NCBI RefSeq assembly: GCF_002234675.1
Contig: NC_019865.2
Location: 965,958 to 1,029,957, forward strand
Length of the DNA: 64,000 bases
Origin: Oryzias latipes
Lineage: Eukaryota; Chordata; Actinopteri; Beloniformes; Adrianichthyidae
Reading direction: 5' to 3'
Below the pieces are notes generated by a model, which was given only the letters and a program-made list of their open reading frames with translations, did no database searches and was not told the DNA's origin. Below are positions 32,101-62,857 of this stretch, in pieces. A program made the position numbers and the translations under genes. Within the stretch, counting starts at the first letter, position 1. Each line of letters begins with the position of its first letter.

Positions 32101-35100
32101 AGGCTACAGAGGAGAATTCGCTTTAGAGCCACAAACCTTTTTGTACAGCAATCAGTTTTTCCTGTTTTCTTTAAAACATTAAAGGGCCTAGATGATGCAA
32201 AATCAAGTTTTAGAGCTTTTAGAGCTTTACAGTGTTTTATAAAGTTAATTTCTCAGAAAAACAACCCCAAAGCGGTATTTTGAGCTGAGGATTCCTCTAA
32301 AAACCGGGGGGGGGGGGGTAAATCCACCAAATGGTTCCTGAGTGCGGCTGTGTCTGCAGCTCACTGCTTCCCCAGGGGAGGGGTCAAATGCGGAGAACAA
32401 CTTTTGCACACCTAGGTGTGTGTCAGATGCTGGGACTTTATCTTTACATTACTGACAACGCGTAATATTTTATCTCCCGTTTACTCTTGAGAAAAGCATG
32501 AAAAAGGCCCTTTAACAGTCTGGTAGCCTAACATTTTTGGCCAGACCTGCTCTATATTCCTTTGGGGATGGACATTCGAGTGCAGGCGCCGGACCAGCGC
32601 CACGCCGTTTCTTGACTGGCGCTTCAGTCGCCAATAGTAATACAAGCGCTGTATGAAGTGGTTCTTCCTTTGGAGGAAGATTCCTTTGCATATGCTATTC
32701 AACCTGAACAAGAGAAAACAGCAAACACACATTTTTAGCATTTTCAGCACATCAGACGTTTACATTGAACATCGCAGCTTCTACAGAATGGGTTATAACA
32801 GGGGTCGGCAACCGGCGGCTCTTTCCTCCCTGAGCTGCGGTTCTCTGTGTTTTTGTAAAATAACTATCATGTTCTAAGATAGTCGTGGTGCCTTTAACAC
32901 CATCGGGTAGCGTAAGCGGGCAGGAGGAAGACAGCAGCAGGAGCGTCTGCAGCTGTGAGTGCGGACCAGTCTATTATGGGATGGATGGAAAGTTCTTCTG
33001 GTACCTGGTAGGGGTCACATGGACACCCCAAAAAAGCCCGTTTTTTTCTCCTAGACTAAAACCACCCATTTCCGCGTAAAATTAAATACATTTTTGTTAG
33101 GGCGCCCCTACATTCCTGTCAACTATCTGCTTCGATGACCGTATGTTGCGTTGTCTGTGTGGAACAAGCTGGGGGAGGGGGGGGGGGGTTGCACGCAGGA
33201 GAAAACAACTTGGAGCTGCAGAGGTGTGAACAGGTAGAGAGACGGGGGCGGGGCTTAGACTCACCGCTTATGATTCCAGACCCGCAACAAACTAAAAGCT
33301 GCTTTCTAATAAAAAATAGTTCTCATCCATTAAATTAATTTACTTTACTGGGTTTAGGGCTGCCCAGTGGTACAGTGGTTAGCATTCTTGCCTCACCGCA
33401 ATTAGGCCCCCAGTTCAAGTCCCAGCAGGGGGACCTTTCTGTGTGGAGTTTGCATGTTCCCCCCGTGTACGCGTGGGTTTTCTCCGGGGTCTCCGGCTTC
33501 CTCCCACCATCCAAAAACATGCTTCATAGGTTAATTGGCAACTCTAAATTGTCCATAATTGTGAGAATGATTGGGTGTGTGATTGTGTCTGCAACAGACT
33601 AGCGATCTGTCCAGGGTGTCCCCCGCCTTCGGCCACAAGTGGCTGGGATAGGCTCCAGCAGCCCCGTGACCCCAAAAGGGACAAAATGGGAGAAGATGAA
33701 TGAATTTATTGCGTTTACTGGATTTAAAGGGAAAAAAATAGAAAGGAGTCCACATCAAAGTGAATTTATTTCCATCATCTCACTCATCAAACACCTCTGG
33801 GTGTTTGACAGACGGAAAAGTCTATTCAAGGTTGTGTAAACTGGACAAAAGATCAAAGGAAACATAGCGCTCATAATTAATTAAAATAAATAATTAAATA
33901 AATATCCTGACAGCATTTTGAATCAATACAAGTATCACCAAATGAACTATCGTGTATCCTATATATATTTCGGCGAAACAGTTTTTTTTCTAACACCCGT
34001 AGTGTTGCGGCTCCCTGTGCTTTCATTTCTGTGGGAAACTCCAAAATGAGTGGTACAGGTTGCCGACCCCTGGGTTATAACAAAAACCTTTGCTTTATAA
34101 CATGTACGTTTAACACTAGTCGGTTTAAACTTAGAGTGTGTCACCACTCTAATGCTTCTGAAGGACTAGAATGGTTTATTTACACAGGAAACACCGAGTC
34201 GTCCTTCATGGAGAAGATCAGCACAGTTCTGCTGCCACGTTTGAAGAGATGGAACTTATCCAGATGTCAGAGGCATTAGTTTCTTTGATGAACATCTAAA
34301 GTGAACCCACTTTAGGTGGAATATTAGTGTAATCCTTGATAGAAACACTTGACAGCTGACTGCAGGTTCCCGCTGCAGGACTGTGATCTTCTCCAGTGAA
34401 TTCAGACTTTTAAACAACGTTGACAGCTGGATGTTCTCCAGGTAGTTAAAGAAAATGTGCTGACATCGAGATAAAAGGGAAAAAAGGGGTTTTGAAAATT
34501 AAACTGGACTGCAAGTTCTATTATAAACAGAAATACATGATATTGACTCTGTTCTAGATCAACCTGAAGCTGCCAGAGATCAGAATCCTGTGAACTAAAC
34601 CCTCAAACTCCCAGCTGAAAACAAATAATATAGATGTAATCTGACCTGTTGGTGGGGATCTGAGGAATTGCCACCTGTAATGAACCTGTGTGTTTAGGCG
34701 ATGCTTCTTCAGCCTTCTTGCCTTTCTTTTTATCACTCTTCCCATCATCTTCAGGCTTTCTGCCTTTTTTTGGCGTGGTTGGACCGACAGTGTAGGCGCT
34801 CTGTCCTCTGCTGGCCCTCCCTCGGCTCCCCACCACCCGTCCTTCAGTCTCCTCGTCTGACCCCGCGTCCTGTCCCGGCGGAGAATGGGCCTCGCAGAAC
34901 GCCGTCTTCTTCACCGAGAACGTGGTTCCGTTGACGTTTGTTTCCCTCACCGGCTCAATCTTCATGAACAAACCAGCGCGCTGAGCACACGTGACGTGAA
35001 ATGCCGTGTAACAGTTGGCCTTGTGACACTGGATGGATGCGCCGCGGCCTTTCTGTTTGCACAGGTAGCAGGTCAGCTTCCAGCGCGCTGGGGGAATATT

Positions 35101-36180
35101 ACTCACTCCTTCCACTGGCTCCAGAAACACAGTGTTGGCAAAACAGACCTCGGGTATCCATATAGCACAGACCACATGGGCCCATCGGCCGTCGCTGGTT
35201 TGTTTAAAGGCGCCGCCTCGATTTGGACACAAAACACAGTCAATTGGTTTCTGAGGAGACTGCAGACAGCAGCGGCACAGCCACTGGCCCTCAGGGATGT
35301 AGGGGACCCCGTAACACTCCTGGTGCACAGCCAGGTTACAGGAGTCACAGAAGAGAATGACATTACTGTTGAGACATTCATCATCCAGGCACACACAGCA
35401 GAAGGCATCGTCATCGATAGAGCTCTGAGATGGCGCCCGGCTGCGGGCTTCGCGGTACGCCTCTTCCTCCAGCCGATCTACCAGCAGCTCAAAAGTGTCC
35501 GGTGAGATGGCCGAGGAACCGTCGGATGTTCGGCCAGCATTGACCATCTCCAACCAGGCAGTGTCTTCTTCATCCATGTCGTATTCTGCCGTTCCTTCAT
35601 GCTCCTCACTGGAGGGTTCGATATAACGATAGTATGCTGCTGGTAGAGGAGGAGCTTCGACCGGTGTGAATGTCTCCTGGACACGGAACTTCGGTTCGGG
35701 GAGAGTCACATGGTTACCGTGTGATGAATGTAGCTTTTCTAAGGACTGTGGCCGAGAACTAGGGCAGTGGTTCTTGGAGGGCTGCGTTGACCTGACGGAG
35801 AAACATTTGGAGTCTTTCTTGCGACCTCTTGGTGTGATGCGTTTGCGGGTTGTTTGGGCACTGCTGGTGGGGCCTGATGACTGCTCGCTGTTCTCTTTGT
35901 TGCTGTTACACTCGCTGATGTCCTGAGCCATCATTTCGTCCTCTGTAATGACCTCCAAAGGCTCAACGATGGAAATACGGTGGAGCCTTCCATCCAATTC
36001 CACCTCCACCACTTTCTGAGCCTGAGAATAAGAAAGAGTCTCTCGGGTTGGAGACGCTTTAAGGCTATAAGGAGAAGGAGATCGCTGGCGGGCGGCTCCT
36101 CTCCCACCAATCGCTCCATTGGACCTAACATCTACTTCACCTCCTGGGCCCGCGTGGCCTTTTTGACGTTGTTTCCTCAT
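26142..36180 (-). CDS. brpf3: BRPF3, PZP-bromodomain-PWWP scaffold of MYST acetyltransferase complexes
   Basis: Scaffold of HBO1/MOZ histone acetyltransferase complexes. Exons, transcription order: 36180-34646, 32703-32547, 32103-31972, 31766-31638, 30120-29808, 29578-29288, 28721-28188, 27268-27193, 26887-26799, 26720-26626, 26553-26399, 26325-26142; 3690 nt, 1229 aa (human 1205). Seen: [13 protein letters not shown] and [18 protein letters not shown] (~43-82); PHD1 from ~258 ([28 protein letters not shown]); Zn knuckle [16 protein letters not shown]2 to ~430 ([24 protein letters not shown]); coiled [20 protein letters not shown]; bromodomain ~610-760 ([44 protein letters not shown]); [20 protein letters not shown] from ~1098 ([39 protein letters not shown]), ending [34 protein letters not shown] and the [15 protein letters not shown] blocks favour BRPF3 over BRD1/BRPF1. 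Confidence 0.95.
30655..30835 (+). repeat. SINE-like repeat in brpf3 intron
   Basis: Contains GGGTTTGGTTGCCGTTCGAC and GTGTCCTTGGGCAAGACACA, words of a widespread fish tRNA-derived SINE family. No coding capacity. Confidence 0.55.
32330..32455. repeat. Dispersed repeat, copy 1 (brpf3 intron)
   Basis: GTGCGGCTGTGTCTGCAGCTCAC, then GGGAGGGGTCAAATG, GGAGAA, CACACCTaGGTGT and TGGGACTTT recur in order at about 48628-48715. Short SINE or SINE-derived fragment, preceded here by a poly-G run. Confidence 0.6.
32799..34072. mobile_element. Non-autonomous hAT element in brpf3 intron 1 of the coding set
   Basis: Ends CAGGGGTCGGCAACC (32799) and GGTTGCCGACCCCTG (to 34072) with a perfect 8-bp target duplication GGTTATAA at 32791-32798 and 34073-34080; 1274 bp. 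No transposase frame. A SINE-like unit sits inside at 33345-33705. Confidence 0.92.
33345..33705 (+). repeat. tRNA-headed SINE-type repeat inside the hAT element
   Basis: Starts with a tRNA-like head (CAGTGGTTAGCATTCTTGCC as A-box region, AGTTCAAGTCCC as B box). It then has the common fish body TGGAGTTTGCATGTTC, CTCCGGCTTCCTCCCACC, GGTTAATTGGCAACTC, CTGTCCAGGGTGTCCCCCGC, GCTGGGATAGGCTCCAGC, and ends in GAATGAAT-type sequence. Probably pol III-derived and nested in the hAT element. Confidence 0.75.
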
Positions 36181-37023
36181 AGGCCGCTCGTCCCACTCCT
36201 TCCTGAATAAAAAGAGATAATATCAAGCAATAAATATTAGAAAAGTATTATTTAAAAAAAAAACCTTTAGGAAAAATGTTTCCCAAATGTGAGGCAGAAC
36301 TTTTGTTATGATGCTCTATATTGCAGCTTTAAAAACAGATTTTATCTGGAATTTTAAAAAACTGTCATAGAATTAAGCACTAATGCAAAAAAAACAAAAA
36401 AACACTTGTTCTGTTTGTAATTCCCCTAAATGTTTGTTGGTATGTGGCACCTAGCAACAAGGTACGATTACAAACACTATTTGACTTCAATCAGGAAGCG
36501 CTTTACATGAGAAACTACAAAGAAAACTTGGTAAAATAAAGTTAAGTAACAATAGTAGATTTTTCTGGAGCTATCGAGCATTACCGCAACAAATCATGAA
36601 CATCCAATCAGCTTACAGCTAAGATTGATTGATCTGTCAAAGAGCCAATCAGAGTCACGAAAACCGCGGCGTCCACACAGTCCTTCCTAACATGTCAGCC
36701 ATATTTCCAGTTCTAAACACTGTTAACTCAGACAGATTTCATTCTGACAGCACTTTAAGGAGCGATGCAGTTTTTACCAAGTTAGAATAAAATCAACGAG
36801 CTTAACGTGTCGGCTAACTGACACAAACTACTGAGGAAAACAAGCAGACTAGCCGATCTGCTAACTTTCAGCTTGACAGAATCTTGCGTTAGTTCTTGTC
36901 TTATTTTTATTTTCAAACGGTGGTTAAAAACCATTACGAGACTAAACACATGAAAGTTTAAAATCGTTCGACAACAGCGTAGAAGTTAAGAGAGCAGAAC
37001 ATTTCCGCTGTCTTACCTACCGA

Positions 37024-38912: not shown

Positions 38913-53146
<14,234 letters not shown>

Positions 53147-53734: not shown

Positions 53735-55261
53735 CAGAATTGCACAGAGAAAGTACGGCCCCCCTCCCTGTCACTCATAGTTGAGAGTTGTTTGTTTACA
53801 CCCTCTCCTGCTAGCTTACAGCCCGTTGATGAAGCCGTCGGTGTCCCTGCAGATGTCCACTTCAGTCCTTTCTTCCTCCACCAAAGACCAGATCTCTACG
53901 TCTGTGTGACGCTTCCGTCTGAGGAGGAAGAGCACTTTGTGGCATTTTTTGTTGTTTTATGCTGAGGAACAGGACGTTTCATCTGCAGGAGGGGCCGTAT
54001 GGAACACTGTTTACTTCTGCATTGGTGTTCGGATGACAGGTTCATGACGTTTTGACAAAAATGGACTTCTGTGTGTGAATGAAAAGGAGAATAAAGTAGT
54101 GGTCCTCTACACCCAAACGTGACTCTGAGCTCCTTATTTTACAGATGAAACTCTGCTTTACCGCCACGGAACCCTGGAAAGACGGCTACACTGGCAATAA
54201 TTTGATTTTGAGTCGCCAAAAGGTTCAGAATCTCTTAGTTTTTTAAACCTATCCGGAAATAAAGCTTCACAAAAGGCTTCACATATTTCAGCTTCAAGCA
54301 CGGCTCAGATAAACGGAAAACTTTGGTGTTTTCTCCTTGTAAATTTACGACTTAAAATCTCGTAATTTAACAGTTATGACTTATTTTTCTAGTAAATTAA
54401 CGACTTAAAAGTTGTAATAAAAAAATTACGACTCTATCGTATTCTCTACATCACAAATGCAATCTTTTTCAAGTGACTTTTTTTTCCGTCTGCTCCTGAT
54501 TCACAATGATTTGAACAAAGTAATACTCAGAAATGCAATCGTCTTTATATCTATTCTCTACGGTGGCCCTGAAGTGCAAAGCATTCAACAAATCACTCGA
54601 TACAAAAACATTTTTAAGATCACAACAACAATTAAAAAAAAAAAAAATTTTTTAAAAAGCAGCATTACATTTTAGAAAACAAAACAAAATTTCAGAAACC
54701 AAAACTTGAAAAACAAAAATGACAAAAAAAAAAAACATTTCAGAAAACAAAATTAATTTCCAGGAAAAAAATAAATATTAAAAAATGAAAACATTTCAGA
54801 AAAAAAAAATCCAGAAAAAAAATGAAATATTAAAAAATGAAAAACATTTCAGAAAAAAAAATTCCAGAAAAAAATGAAATATTAAAAAATGAAAAACATT
54901 TCAGAAAAAAAATGAAATATTAAAAAATGAAAAACATTTCAGAACACAGAATGAATTTCCAGAAAACAAAACGAAATCTTCAAAAATGAAAAACATTTTC
55001 AAACCGGAAGAGGCAGGTACTATGGGACAACGCTGATTGGATGATGATTTTTGTCAATCATTTGAACTGAAAAGTATTTTAAATGAAGCGATGACGGATT
55101 TTATCGTCCAAACAACAATGTACTATAATAATCCACGTATTTCCCATTTATATATCAAATAAAAAATGCAGCAAACTGTTAATGAACTTTAAAATTATTT
55201 TTTTAACATTTCGCCTGACACACGGTCACCCGGAAGTAGTTTGTGAGCACTTTTACTTTGA

Positions 55262-56330
55262 ACGCTGTGCGCTAATGTCTACGGCTGCGAGGTTCACGCT
55301 GTCAATCATCTTTAGGTAAGAATCAATTCTGTGATCTTTTCTTTTGTCAGTCACATGTCTCTAAGGATGTTAATTTTAGGATGTTAAAGTGCTGCTTTGA
55401 AAAGATAATTTATTTTTATCTTGCGCATGCGCAAAAAGAACCCGATGGAGACGAACCGTCTTCACATGATAGCCGTTCCCGTTTTCGGTGACAACATGAG
55501 AGAAAAAGCTCCGAGCCAGCCTGATTCTGTGATTTATACAGTAATTACAGTAATTATATGGCATCAGTGTTGCTAAAAATCGACTTTAAGACTGAAATCA
55601 GTAAACAAGTTCTTATGGGAAATAATATTTAAGTGCATTGTATATTTTTGAACCATGCATATACACATATACTGAAACTTAAAAATGAACTTTAAAGTTT
55701 ATAAAATACTTAATTGAATTAACATGTGATATTTCTGCAGGTGAAGTTTCTCAAAGCGAAGTTCCAGAAAGGTTTGTGCTGCAGAAGAACAGATGGCAGC
55801 TCTACATGGGAATACAAAAAGACTAAAGTCATTCAGATCATTGTGCAGTGTACAGGCAAGTCACCATGATTTATGTGCAATGTAATCAATAAATATTATT
55901 TAACCTTAATATCTAATTTTTTTTTTAAATTGCAGGTCCTTTAAAAAAAACGTCTTTAACCTGCTGCATAAGCCTGATTAGTTGTAAATGATGCAGTGGG
56001 GAGTGAAAGACGAAGCACAATTCCTGGCTTTAGCGTCGGGCTGATGATCTGGAAATCACATCTATGAGGAACCGCATCAAACACTTGTACAACTCCAAAC
56101 AACTTAATGTTCCTTTAAGCAAAACTCCAGTTTAAAATGTTCATATTAGACTTGCTTCATTTAGGAGTTTTTCCATGTTTACCATTTTAGGTTTTAAAGC
56201 TTTATTAACAAAGATGATGTTTGATTTTCAAAGCTGTTGTTTAGAAATGTATTTTTGTCAATGAAAAAACTGAATGCTGATGTGAGGATTGTAATAATGG
56301 ATATGAAAATAAACAAATTTGTTTCATAGC
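55262..56330 (+). other. Exon-like transcription unit 1 in the long-arm element
   Basis: Candidate exons: ~55262-55315 (ATG at 55275, donor TTTAG|GTAAGA), 55741-55855 (acceptor TTTCTGCAG; donor TACAG|GCAAGT, a GC-type donor), 55936 to ~56330 with AATAAA at 56308-56313. The ATG of the first exon meets a stop at the start of exon 2, although exon 2 is open in other frames. Either the transcript is non-coding, the true start differs, or the gene has decayed. No family recognised. Confidence 0.35.
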
Positions 56331-56334
56331 AATG

Positions 56335-57440
56335 CAGTATATTTATTGAAAACTTAACATGAATACGTTATTCAGTAACAGAAACAAAGAAACTGTTGTT
56401 GATTTCCCTTTATGGGCTTCTTCATGCAGTCAATCAAATGTTGCGTTTACATTCAGCATTTACTCAGCGTACCTGTCAGTCACATTTATTAGAGGAAAAA
56501 ATGCATCTGGGAAAAGTCTGTTTGTGCTTAACAACTATATCAAAAAGAGTCATGTCAGGGAAGTTTTGTCCACATTGCTGCTCAGCATCACATCCAGAGG
56601 AAGATGCACAGGTAAGGGACCCCAGTTCCTGCTCGTACATGCTTGCAGCTTCCTCTGCACTGGACTCCAGCTCCAGCTCTTGAAATCCCTGACAGAGATA
56701 AATTAATAAATTAAAAATCCCTGACAGAAAAACATCAGCTGCCGTTCAGCTTTCATTCAGGAAAAAGTTGAGTTCATCAAAATGAGGAGAAAATGGGTTA
56801 AACCAGAAATTCATTAGGGAGGGGTCAAAACACCAAACTCAGAATAAAATACATTATTTCAGTCTTATAAAAAATACATTCTAAAACAATTTGGTATTCC
56901 TCCTCTGCCTGAAAGACTAAAACGTTTTTTTTAAAGATTTATTTTACACTACAGACTTTGCCACCTTTAGTTACACACCTGGATGTGTCTGATGATGTGC
57001 ACATCCAGTCATTTACTGTCATGTTTCTGTGCACTGACACACTCTAAAGTCACAGATCTTAATAGTGTGAATAAGAAGCATTCATAAATGTTATTCTGAG
57101 ACACAAACTGCTGCAGTTTACCTGACAGCTTTGCTGATTTATGCTGCTGGTACACCTGTCTGTGAATCCTGCCCACGTGACCCCCCCTCTCCAGCTGATG
57201 AGGTAACCTGTCATTAACGTATGACTGAAGGATCTTGGATCTGTCTGTAAACACCCACCTAGAAATCACGTTTAACGCTACATTTATTAGATCAAACAAA
57301 TGTGCCTCCATACCTTATCTGTGGATGGCGGGACTGCATTTCCTGATGTGCGCCGTCTTTAACACCCGTTTCTTCGCAGCTGCTGCTTTAGACAGAATCC
57401 TCTCACGACATTTCGAAACATTTGTAAACCTGGTTGGTGT
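56335..57440 (-). other. Exon-like transcription unit 2 in the long-arm element
   Basis: Minus-strand candidate exons: ~57440-57314 (donor ATAAG|GTATGG), 57258-57122 (acceptor TTTCTAG, donor TCAG|GTAAAC), 56689 downward (acceptor CTGTCAG), with AATAAA read from 56347 to 56342. Exon 2 is open in two frames. Exon 3 is open as GFQELELESSAEEAASMYEQ and onward for about 70 codons, an acidic segment. The frames do not join cleanly in my hands. No known domain recognised. Confidence 0.35.
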
Positions 57441-58744
57441 TGATATTTCTGCGTGCGTTCTGTCATCACATCCACTAAATATTCAAAGATTAAAGTTTAT
57501 GTTAACGTTTTACCGTCCCTTTCTTTGTTTACCTGCAGAACGGACGTCATCCACACAAACTACTTCCGGGTGACCGTTCTGCTTCAGACGAAATATTCAA
57601 AAAATAATTTAAACCTTCATTATCTGTTTGCTGCATTTTTGATTTAATATGTAAATGGGAAATACGGGAATTATCATGGTACATTGTTGTTTGGACGATA
57701 AAATCCGTCGTCGCTTCATTTAAAATACTTTTCAGTTCAAATGATCGACAAACATCATCATCCAATCAGCGTTGTCCCATAGTACCTGCTTCTTCCGGTT
57801 TGGAAATGTTTTTCATTTTTGAAGATTTCGTTTTGTTTCTGGAAATTCATTCTGTGTTCTGAAATGTTTTTCATTTTTTAATATTTCATTTTGTTTTTCT
57901 GAAATGTTTTCATTTTTTTTATTTCATTTTGTTTTCTGGAAATTAATTTTTTTTCTGAAATGTTTTCATTTTGTAATATTTCTTTTTTTTCTGGAAATTA
58001 ATTTTGTTTTCTGAAATCTTTTTTTCTTTTTTTCTTTTTTATGTTTTGGTTTCTGAAATTTTGTTTTGTTTTCTAAAATGTAATACGCTTTTTAAATTGT
58101 TGCTGTGATCTTAAAAATGTTTTTGTATCGAGTGATTTGTTGAATGGTTTGCACTTCAGGGCCACCGTAATTCTCCACCAGAAAAATGCCCCAAGAACAT
58201 GTTAAAAACACAATTTCCATCGGAGTGGGACTCTACTCTGTCTCTCTTCTGGAATAAACACTTTTGTAACGACACGAAGCTTTATTTTGAAGGAAATGTC
58301 ACGTGGATCCGGTCGAAGATCGTGTTTGACTTTATCACGTCGCTCCTGAACCGTCCAATGACTGCTGAGCCGTGATCTCCGCTTTCCTGTAAACACGCAG
58401 CCTGGATTGAAGGTGCAGACGTTCAGCAGCAGGACGCGTCCTGACGTCACTCAAAGTTTTCCCCGCAGAATTTCCGAACTTCCAGGTGTGATCTGCCGCG
58501 CGCGCGGAAGCCAACTCGCAGAAACATGTCCGCGTGACGAACCTTCCTCCTCCCACATGCAGGAGGAGGAGGAGGTGTTGACATGAAGTGATCCTGAATC
58601 CCTGCAGCTTCACTCACAGAACAGGGTGAAACAGGAGCCTGCAGGTGAGTTCCTGCACAAATCCACAGCAGTTTCTCTTCCACACATCCCCGTTCAGGTA
58701 ACAAACACCTGAAATGTGAGGGGTCTGGATGATTTCCCTCCAGA

Positions 58745-58915: not shown

Positions 58916-59616
58916 ATTTATGACACAACAACAGAAAGAGGGTTATTCAAAAAGGATGCAATGATTTCGCTTTTACCGAGGCTTGAAGTAAGTACATCCA
59001 TGTTTTTAAAATAAAACACCAGGCAACATTTGCTGCAGCAAATAAATAAATTGTTGGTAACCATTCTACGGCGGCCCAGAAGGCTCACAACACACTTTGG
59101 ATTTTGCAACAAAACACAAAATAAAACACTACAATTTGTCACAACACAAAAAGAACTTACAACACAAAAACAAAATCTCACAACACTTTAACTCACAACG
59201 GTAGTCCGTTGCAGATATACTGTCACTAGAATAGTCTGTTATGAGTTTCACAGCTCTCAGGTAATTGGTCTGGTTTCCACGGCGACTCATGAACATCGAA
59301 ATTCCCTACAAGTCTATATTTTTGTCTTTTTGACATTTCAATGTGCATTTTCATTCGAATTGTGGTACCAAAAAGCTCCGACAATTTAAAACGCAAATGA
59401 TTTAGCTTTTATTCAAAATTTCATTTGTAAAATTGTAAGGCTGAATTGTTGAAATGTCAGTTGCAAAATGCATTTTCAAATTGCAAATTGAAGTGTCAAT
59501 AGAGAATTGTATATCGCTTTGAATTATGGGTGAAAAAACTTCTATCAGACTCACCGGCCAGAGATGTAAAGTTGATCTCCTTATTAGTGTTGTGTTAGTC
59601 AAGAGCTGTTCTGAAC

Positions 59617-61226
59617 TCCATCCATCCATCCATCCATCCATCCATCCATCCATCCATCCATCCATCCATCCATCCATCCATCCATCATCCATCCATCCAT
59701 CCATCCATCCATCCATTCATCATCCATCCATCCATCCATCCATCCATCATCCATCCATCCATCCATCCATCCATCATCCATCCATCCATCCATCCATCCA
59801 TCCATCCATCCATCCATCCATCCATCCATCCATCCATCATCCATCCATCCATCCATCCATCCATCCATCATCCATCCATCCATCCATCCATCCATCCATC
59901 ATCCATCCATCCATCCATCCATCCATCCATCCATCCATTCATCATCCATCCATCCATCCATTCATCCATCATCCATCCATCCATCCATCATCCATCCATT
60001 ATCCATCCATCCATCATCCATCCATCATCCATCATCCATCCATTATCCATCCATCCATCATCCATCCATCCATCATCCATCCATCCATCCATCCATCCAT
60101 CCATTCATCATCCATCCATCCATCCATCCATCCATCCATCCATCCATCCATCCATCCATCATCCATCCATCCATCCATCCATCCATCCATCCATCCATCC
60201 ATTCATCATCCATCCATCCATCCATCCATCCATCATCCATCCATCCATCATCCATCCATCCATCCATCCATCCATCCATCCATCCATCCATCCATCCATC
60301 CATCCATCCATCCATCATCCATCCATCCATCCATCCATCCATCCATCCATTCATCATCCATCCATCCATCCATCCATCCATCCATCCATCATCCATCCAT
60401 CCATCCATCCATCCATCCATCCATCCATCCATCCATCCATCCATCCATCCATCCATCCATCCATCCATCCATCCATCCATCCATCCATCCATCATCCATC
60501 CATCCATCCATCCATCCATCCATCCATCCATCCATCCATCCATCCATCCATCCATCCATCCATCCATCCATCCATCCATCCATCCATCCATCCATCCATC
60601 CATCCATCCATCCATCATCCATCCATCCATCCATCCATCCATCCATCCATCATCCATCCATCCATCCATCCATCCATCCATCCATCATCCATCCATCCAT
60701 CCATCCATCCATCCATCCATCCATTCATCATCCATCCATCCATCCATTCATCCATCATCCATCCATCCATCCATCATCCATCCATTATCCATCCATCCAT
60801 CATCCATCCATCATCCATCATCCATCCATTATCCATCCATCCATCATCCATCCATCCATCATCCATCCATCCATCCATCCATCCATTCATCATCCATCCA
60901 TCCATCCTCCATCATCCATCCATCCATCCATCCATCCATCCATCATCCATCCATCCATCCATCATCCATCCATCCATCCATCCATCCATCATCCATCTCT
61001 CCATCCATCCATCCATCCATCCATCCATTCATCCATCCATCCATCCATCCATCATCCATCCATCCATCCATCCATCATCCATCCATCCATCCATCCATCA
61101 TCCATCCATCCATCCATCCATCCATCATCCATCCATCCATCCATCCATCCATCATCCATCCATCCATCCATCCATCATCCATCCATCCATCCATCCATCC
61201 ATCATCCATCCATCCATCCATCACCC
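59617..61226. repeat. (CCAT)n satellite, 1.6 kb, with duplicated block
   Basis: CCAT tetranucleotides with interspersed 3-base phase slips (CATCATCC), giving long Pro-Ser-Ile-His or Met-Asp-Gly-Trp frames on both strands that are not genes. A distinctive ~150-bp segment starting CCATTCATCATCC at 59935 recurs at 60721, 786 bp apart. The array runs directly into an L2 tail. Confidence 0.95.
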
Positions 61227-61781
61227 ATCAATTCAATTCAATTCAATTCAATTTTATTTGTATAGCCCAAATTCACAACAACAGTCGTCTCGATGGGCTT
61301 CGAAGTAAAACATGAACTCAAAAGGATCATGAATACAAAGAGTTCAATAGAAAAATACTAAAATAAACTAACAAACTGACTAAGCTATACTGGCATCCCT
61401 GCCCTTAGACCCCCCTTCGCGGTAAGGAAAAACTCCTAAAAAAACTGGATTCCGGAAAAAACGAAGAAACCTCAGGGGTGCCCACATGAAGGAGGGATCC
61501 TCCCCCAGGACGGACAGGCGATGTACCAGAACTCTTAGAGAAGAATTAACTTATCTAAAGCTACAACTACACATTTAAAGTCCAGCAGACGAGCTTCATC
61601 CAGCTGGAGTTGGGGGGACAGTCGGGGGCGCGAGTCGAGCCGGAGACAGGAACCACAGCCAGGTGTAGGAGCAGGAGCAAAGGCGAGGCACTCGGTCAGG
61701 AACAGGAGCACGGATGAACCAACTGGAGTCTGGAAGCACTCCCACTCCCCAGGAGGGGAAAGAGGGAAAGAGGGACAATAC
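61226..61781 (-). mobile_element. L2-type LINE copy B, 3' part (minus)
   Basis: Starts with (ATTCA)n and AATTTTATTTGTATAGCCC, the reverse complement of the tail at 63680-63716, and runs through the 3' UTR in the minus direction to GGGACAATAC. It resumes at about 63717. Confidence 0.88.
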
Positions 61782-62857
61782 AAACAGATTAGAGCAGGAC
61801 ATAGGGATCAGAGGATCTGCTCTCCAGTGGTTTAAATCCTATCTGTCCGATAGGTATCAGTTCGTTAATGTAAATAGCCATTCCTCTCAGTGCACTCGAG
61901 TCAACTATGGAGTCCCACAGGGCTCAGTCTTGGGACCGATCCTGTTTACGCTTTATATGCTACCCCTAGGAAACATAATCAGGAAACACAGCATTAATTT
62001 TCATTGTTATGCCGACGATACGCAGTTGTATTTATCCATGAAGCCTCACCAGAATGACCAGATAGAGAAACTGAACGCCTGCATCAGAGACATCAAGACC
62101 TGGATGACAATTAATGACCTCCTCTTGAACCCAGAAAAAACTGAGGTCATTATACTTGGTCCTAAAAACCTCAGAGATGCTCTGTCTGCTCAGATAGTCT
62201 CCCTGGATGGCATAAGTATAGCCCCCAATTCCACAGTTAGAAACCTTGGGGTTTTATTTGACCAGGATTTATCATTTAAGGCTCACATATCTCAGGCGTG
62301 CAGAACTGCCTTTTCACCTGCGGAATATTGCTAAGATCAGAAATCTACTTTCTAAGAGTGATGCTGAAAAACTCATCCATGCATTTGTTACGTCGAGGCT
62401 GGATTACTGTAACTCCTTGTTAGCAGCGTGTCCTAAGAGTTCCTTAAGAAGTCTCCAGCTTGTTCAGAACGCAGCAGCTAGATTGTTAGCTGGAACCAGC
62501 AGAAGAGATCACATCACTCCTGTGTTAGTTTCACTTCACTGGATCCCAGTTGATTCTAGAATCCAGTTCAAGATCCTCCTGTTAACCTATAAGGCCTTAC
62601 ATGGAATGGCCCCGTCCTATATTAAGGACCTCATAGTCCCTTACCATCCAATGAGAACACTTCGCTCGCAAAATGCAGGACTGCTTGTGGTTCCTAGAAT
62701 TAGTAAAAGTACGGTTGGAGGTAGAGCGTTTAGCCACCAAGCCCCTGTCTTATGGAATAAACTCCCAGCTCATGTAAGAGAGGCCGACTCAGTTTCTACA
62801 TTCAAAGTTAGACTTAAAACATTCCTCTGTGGACAGGCTTATTGTCAGACTAGTTAG
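61782..62857 (+). pseudogene. L2 reverse transcriptase, 5'-truncated and frameshifted
   Basis: Begins at [20 protein letters not shown]. Motif B region [20 protein letters not shown]; catalytic YADDTQLYL (ADD box); [13 protein letters not shown]; then after a frame change near 62305-62325, IRNLLSKSDAEKLIHAFVTS, RLDYCNSLLAACP, AARLLAGTSRRDHITPVL, LHWIPVDSRIQFKILLLTYK, and the C-terminal FSHQAPVLWNKLP. The frame break and missing 5' half mean it is not functional. Confidence 0.88.

Follow-up and report, generated by a model that had tools for sequence, protein, structure and literature searches.

A young family of non-autonomous DNA transposons with IS3EU-type ends in the medaka genome

To which group of mobile elements does a 3.6-kb block of medaka (Oryzias latipes) DNA belong that has long inverted arms, is bordered by a 6-bp direct repeat and carries two AATAAA signals facing each other in its centre? 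An earlier note on this DNA had suggested a transposon of a possibly undescribed kind with two convergent, spliced-looking genes, perhaps non-autonomous or gene-capturing. We addressed the question in the window (the whole stretch of DNA analysed, 64,000 nucleotides of contig NC_019865.2) and in the medaka genome (734 Mb, 25 contigs).

Boundaries and Architecture of the Element

The block comprises 3611 bp (window positions 54559-58169) and its boundaries are exact. Its outermost sequence is TACGGTGGCCC..GGGCCACCGTA, enclosed by a 6-bp duplication, ATTCTC; it opens with TACGGTGGCCCTGAAGTGCAA and closes with the exact reverse complement of TACGGTGGCCCTGAAGTGCAA, and just two sites of this type (up to 3 mismatches) were found in the window, the chance expectation being none. 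The 21-bp termini are identical at both ends (two matches in the window vs. none in 100 shuffles). The inverted arms (54559-55245 and 57554-58169) are 83% identical over 692 columns, and both contain tandem arrays with units of about 52-56 bp. The inverted arms, matching termini and ATTCTC borders proposed in the earlier note were thus confirmed, and both AATAAA signals were found where it had placed them. The features of the element are as follows.

54553-54558, no strand: left copy of the target duplication, ATTCTC, by sequence
54559-55245, plus strand: left inverted arm, 687 bp, with the 21-bp terminus outermost, a tandem array at 54724-54912 (units of about 52 bp) and an inner part
55004 and 55230: two CCGGAAG sites in the inner left arm
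55246-57553, no strand: unique centre of 2308 bp with a GC content of 37%, in which no domain was recognised and stop-to-stop ORFs reach at most 118 aa
56308-56313, plus strand: AATAAA, possible poly(A) signal (a 10-mer containing it is kept in 33 of 34 copies)
56342-56347, minus strand: AATAAA, possible poly(A) signal (a 13-mer containing it is kept in 34 of 34 copies)
57554-58169, minus strand: right inverted arm, 616 bp, with the same layout as the left arm
57563 and 57792: CTTCCGG sites in the right arm
58170-58175, no strand: right copy of the target duplication, ATTCTC, by sequence

Sites of the CCGGAAG/CTTCCGG type, which we take to be ETS-core-like, occur 12 times in the window, and four of them lie within the arms, where they would suit inward promoters without proving them.

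Insertion and Target Duplication

When the flanks were joined at the duplication, they matched two other repeats of the window across the join (50419-50588, 75%; 39245-39386, 69%), so the block represents an insertion into a repeat copy, as the earlier note had argued, and the empty site could be reconstructed from these paralogous copies. The length of the duplication was surveyed at 40 loci (L001 and L009-L047; L002-L008 were omitted as repeats of L009-L015), 34 of which have both ends (L029, L037, L041, L042, L045 and L047 do not). The comparison of copies, which had been suggested as a check, revealed an exact 6-bp direct repeat in 32 of the 34 two-ended copies (all except L021 and L040), and none was longer. 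The target sequence changes from one locus to the next with few exceptions, and T/A is weakly preferred in the middle of the duplication.

Copy Number and Age in the Medaka Genome

In a search with the whole element, the best 40 of 2147 candidates were scored, and over 30 of them proved to be near-complete copies. A central 40-mer was found at 145 places (up to 1 mismatch) and an inner-arm 40-mer at 220 places, and 600 exact matches to the 21-bp terminus were counted (290 in forward and 310 in reverse orientation; reversed control 0), a result of the genome-wide terminus search that is clearly at odds with a single-copy sequence. Together with the missing transposase (see below), the 600 termini and the 145 central matches agree with the earlier view of a non-autonomous DNA transposon present in many copies. 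The 21-mer is followed by AT at 280 ends, by AA or AC at 174 and by bases without A at 19, which gives 127 ends with AG by subtraction. In the 3.6-kb element the left terminus is followed by AG and the right terminus by AC; the 127 AG ends and at most 174 AA/AC ends are therefore consistent with about 145 two-ended elements, and the AT-type ends examined belong to shorter or unresolved elements (L050-L052, L054-L057). The 34 aligned copies diverge by only 0.6-1.5% from their consensus, which indicates that the spread was recent.

Comparison with IS3EU Transposons

According to the text available from PMC10045372, TA..TA termini are found without exception in complete IS3EU families, whose duplications are usually 6 bp long, and IS3EU and GingerRoot are grouped with IS3/IS481-like DDD/E enzymes; a fungal IS3EU set is described, in the part accessible of PMC12730594, with TAYGG..CCRTA termini, 6-bp duplications and inverted repeats of more than 30 bp. 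The medaka element ends with TACGG..CCGTA, in agreement with both signatures (the latter being that of fungal families), it shares the 6-bp duplication, and its arms of 687 and 616 bp are well above 30 bp. Unlike the autonomous members of IS3EU, it has no recognisable transposase, which is in keeping with a non-autonomous member, and its arms of 0.6-0.7 kb hold an internal tandem array. Judged by its ends and its duplication, the element is very likely a DNA transposon of the IS3EU/GingerRoot type that moves by cut-and-paste and is non-autonomous. The suggestion of an undescribed superfamily is not supported, because the terminus and the duplication length match those printed for IS3EU in the available parts of these two sources; the family looks new within a known superfamily, and not like a new kind of transposon.

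A transposase of the IS3/IS481-like DDD/E type, supplied in trans, would bind the conserved terminus, excise the element and insert it at a target cut with a 6-bp stagger. More tentatively, the inner arms might serve as inward promoters, and the centre might be transcribed into spliced RNAs, non-coding or relic in nature, with their ends at the facing AATAAA signals.

Search for the Source of the Transposase

Integrase-core matches to PF24764 (presumably the IS3EU transposase) were found in the medaka genome; the best 150 of 858 candidates were scored, some of them with long open frames, and the control genomes gave 0 of 14. When these places were compared with the listed termini and inner arms, no transposase gene was linked to the 21-bp terminus. 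Between the 150 scored places and 270 of the 600 termini, the nearest pairs are 10.2 and 10.7 kb apart and the next 49 kb, and we calculate that chance alone would place about one pair within 11 kb. From C1 to C4:25.67 Mb, for which the terminus list is complete, a terminus lies within 20 kb of one of the 30 PF24764 places. The comparison of inner arms with 89 of the 150 places revealed two neighbours within 30 kb, on C20 and C16, and the C20 neighbour, read between its arms, proved to be a copy of the 3.6-kb element into which other DNA has inserted. The stretches downstream of five PF24764 genes contained no convincing terminus. A motif beside one PF24764 gene, TACGGTCG (58 occurrences), was rejected as a terminus because five of its pairs face outwards, and a fragment-bearing family, read at one locus (L066), showed no clear ends.

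An autonomous partner was also sought with exact inner-arm 40-mers (98 and 51 of the two types), which were paired by distance. Ninety of the 149 sites could be paired (59 were unpaired within the lists), and in 41 of the 45 pairs the two sites lie at the usual distance of about 2.6 kb. Three of the four abnormally spaced pairs (L047, L064, L065) turned out to be 3.6-kb copies with nested inserts and not longer partners; the fourth, on C6 and 15 kb long, has a listed match to the centre between its arms. L065 contains a long LINE-like frame. Among the widely spaced termini, those 14.7 kb apart belong to one diverged copy that holds two large inserts, and one of these has frames that resemble reverse transcriptase by motif. 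The termini 17.4 kb apart come from a short element and from part of a second one, respectively. Nested inserts aside, the longest form with the 21-bp terminus is 3.6 kb among the arm and terminus pairs read.

The terminus is also carried by short elements of about 0.5-1 kb, visible in L053-L056, with another in L057. In the sample L050-L056, made up of five termini read singly and two short pairs, the similarity of the subterminal sequence to the arms of the 3.6-kb element is 66-86% (96% in one match of 25 bp). The short elements of L053-L056 carry the identical terminus at one end or both, together with related subterminal stretches that are mostly 66-82% similar; nothing matching the 2.3-kb centre was seen, and these elements appear to consist of two directly joined arms. 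An exact 6-bp duplication is absent in L055, L056 and L057, in which both ends were read (4, 5 and 4 of 6 bases agree, respectively); such inexact hexamers are expected for decayed copies and do not independently establish a 6-bp duplication for the short forms.

Because none of the integrase-like genes found in this genome is tied to the 21-bp terminus, the terminus might mark a lineage of its own, inside IS3EU or next to it, that is mobilised by a so far unrecognised enzyme and has a 3.6-kb form whose convergent non-coding units are functional and aid its spread; we regard this combination as unlikely.

Coding Content of the Centre and Alternative Interpretations

A Pfam search with 15 ORFs of the element gave no match above the cut-off and no transposase domain, and nothing in the window reached the gathering score in Rfam. 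The best Pfam score was that of Kazal_C6 in a minus-strand ORF (E 0.0011, 19.4 bits, cut-off 27), which would be the trace of a host gene if the element were a gene-capturing (Pack-like) one with its centre copied from such a gene. Two other frames of the centre score E 0.006-0.008, the Kazal_C6-scoring ORF matches no solved structure, and, with the scores of unrelated frames differing by no more than about sevenfold, the weak hits to Kazal_C6, TackOD1 and OTOS were dismissed as noise. The best 40 matches to the 82-bp terminus all lie in elements: 37 are accompanied by a listed centre in the expected position, and the remaining three are accounted for by a fetched copy (L044) or by an arm and the far end. 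Gene capture, as the earlier note had considered it, was not shown by this search of the best-scoring candidates (which a diverged host parent would escape), and it seems improbable.

Similarly doubtful is an element of the MuDR/MULE type with genes driven from its long arms, a resemblance that the earlier note had drawn from the two-gene layout. Long arms do flank a unique centre, and they contain the ETS-core-like sites, but the Pfam, third-position and frameshift tests gave no coding evidence for two such genes. MuDR-type duplications measure 8-9 bp, vs. 6 bp in 32 of the 34 copies, and no mudrA-like or MULE transposase domain was found in the 15 ORFs, although a non-autonomous member would lack one too. 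The length of the duplication alone cannot exclude MuDR, because the text available from PMC10045372 gives duplications of 4-10 bp for MuDR together with IS256. A MuDR affinity fits poorly, disfavoured by duplication length and missing domain (neither is decisive for a non-autonomous element), and has little probability.

If the 3.6-kb element were itself autonomous, two convergent spliced genes would encode an unrecognised transposase and thereby define a new superfamily. A donor-like site at 55315, the facing AATAAA signals, the best-kept frames (p71 intact in 31 of 34 copies, p114 in 27) and the fact that no longer form remains once nested inserts are explained would be in its favour. However, the longest ORF has 118 aa, and the 15 ORFs are without a Pfam match above the cut-off. 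The variants shared across the 34 copies showed no consistent third-position excess in seven ORFs, and frame-breaking indels are present in 3-16 of the 34 copies per ORF (13-16 in four of the seven). Convergent AATAAA signals within 40 bp appeared in 61 of 1000 order-1 simulations of the centre. The 2.3-kb centre is also small, given that a normal DDE enzyme plus a second gene would need more. The exon-like blocks that had been described on both strands are the weak point of the earlier description: a few splice-like sites are present by a simple pattern, but no clear coding constraint was seen in the ORFs tested. In view of the missing Pfam match and coding constraint, the frameshifts and the simulated AATAAA pairs, a transposase encoded in the centre is unlikely on sequence grounds, and the autonomous, new-superfamily interpretation as a whole is very improbable.

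Other superfamilies and families were compared in the same way. hAT6, named among the superfamilies in the accessible part of PMC12730594, agrees in its 6-bp duplication, and no hAT domain was found in the 15 ORFs (the comparison being based on length and domains alone). Izanagi, a medaka-specific non-autonomous P element (PMC2820524, in the text available), is likewise a non-autonomous medaka DNA transposon with a relic gene, but it was rejected because its CAATG termini and 8-bp duplications differ from those of the 3.6-kb element. The 27-bp Izanagi terminus occurs at 688 places in the same genome (up to 1 mismatch). Dada elements, with which the earlier note had made a comparison, are present in medaka and make 6-7 bp duplications, but in the available description (PMC3706591) they have no terminal inverted repeats and target U1, U6 or tRNA genes, so that the long arms and the target sites differing at nearly every locus refute a Dada-type element on both features and leave it practically no chance.

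Significance of the IS3EU-Type Family in Medaka

The IS3EU-type assignment concerns a little-studied superfamily. The IS3EU row of a 2016 survey of four teleosts has a single entry, taken to be zebrafish (PMC4746887, in the part accessible), and low IS3EU activity is described for killifish in the available text of PMC12763893. No medaka report of the 3.6-kb family was found in the literature searched (mostly at the level of listed entries), and the matches to the letters of the terminus were unrelated by title. The medaka element represents a young non-autonomous family with IS3EU-type ends that is apparently undescribed in this species. A recent IS3EU-type burst, with copies about 1% from their consensus, would make a little-studied superfamily testable in a vertebrate, and the conserved 21-bp terminus and the clean 6-bp duplication provide ready substrates for transposition assays.

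Element copies and neighbouring sequences

Two genomic copies of the 3.6-kb element, L013 (contig C24) and L021 (contig C18), have an identical left flank (100% over 300 bp), and flank and element together align at 98.6% identity. The alignment ends precisely at the right end of the element and the target duplication is absent from L021, a pattern that may reflect a one-ended event, recombination or an assembly artefact. Another copy, in the genomic stretch L065, holds a nested open frame, which is probably LINE-like, judging by its motifs.

Features of the window and of the L065 copy
L065:1612-4656, minus strand; open frame of 1015 aa nested within a copy of the 3.6-kb element
Window 34606-36222, minus strand; host-gene exon with EPL1 and PHD-type zinc-finger domains
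Window 45342-48165 and 59523-61312; extended tandem repeats in which several reading frames are open
Window 61669-62331, plus strand; LINE-like open frame with a reverse-transcriptase domain

The host gene to which the exon belongs is presumably BRPF-like. In translation, the tandem stretches give a repeated peptide and HPSI-like peptides. Window positions 43936-45334 resemble, in pieces (about 89-94% similarity), repeat sequence that adjoins an integrase gene in the genomic stretch L062, part of which, when translated, we assume to be a Tc1-like fragment.

Repeats associated with integrase genes

Two integrase genes, on contigs C19 and C12, are each followed downstream, at a distance of about 1.2 kb, by the repeated motif TACGGTCGATAAATTGTTTCCCGTATTAT (L063:1017-1045 and 57 further places; 58 in all, with up to two mismatches allowed). 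Five pairs of this motif are outward-facing, spaced 1.1-1.4 kb apart.

Among the 150 scored matches to the integrase-core profile PF24764 (the best of 858 candidates in the host genome, G000), 52 are near-identical fragments, of which a single copy, L066, was read. Their frames are 76 or 96 aa long and cover profile positions 132-135 to 187; these fragments are a high-copy family bearing the end of an integrase gene.
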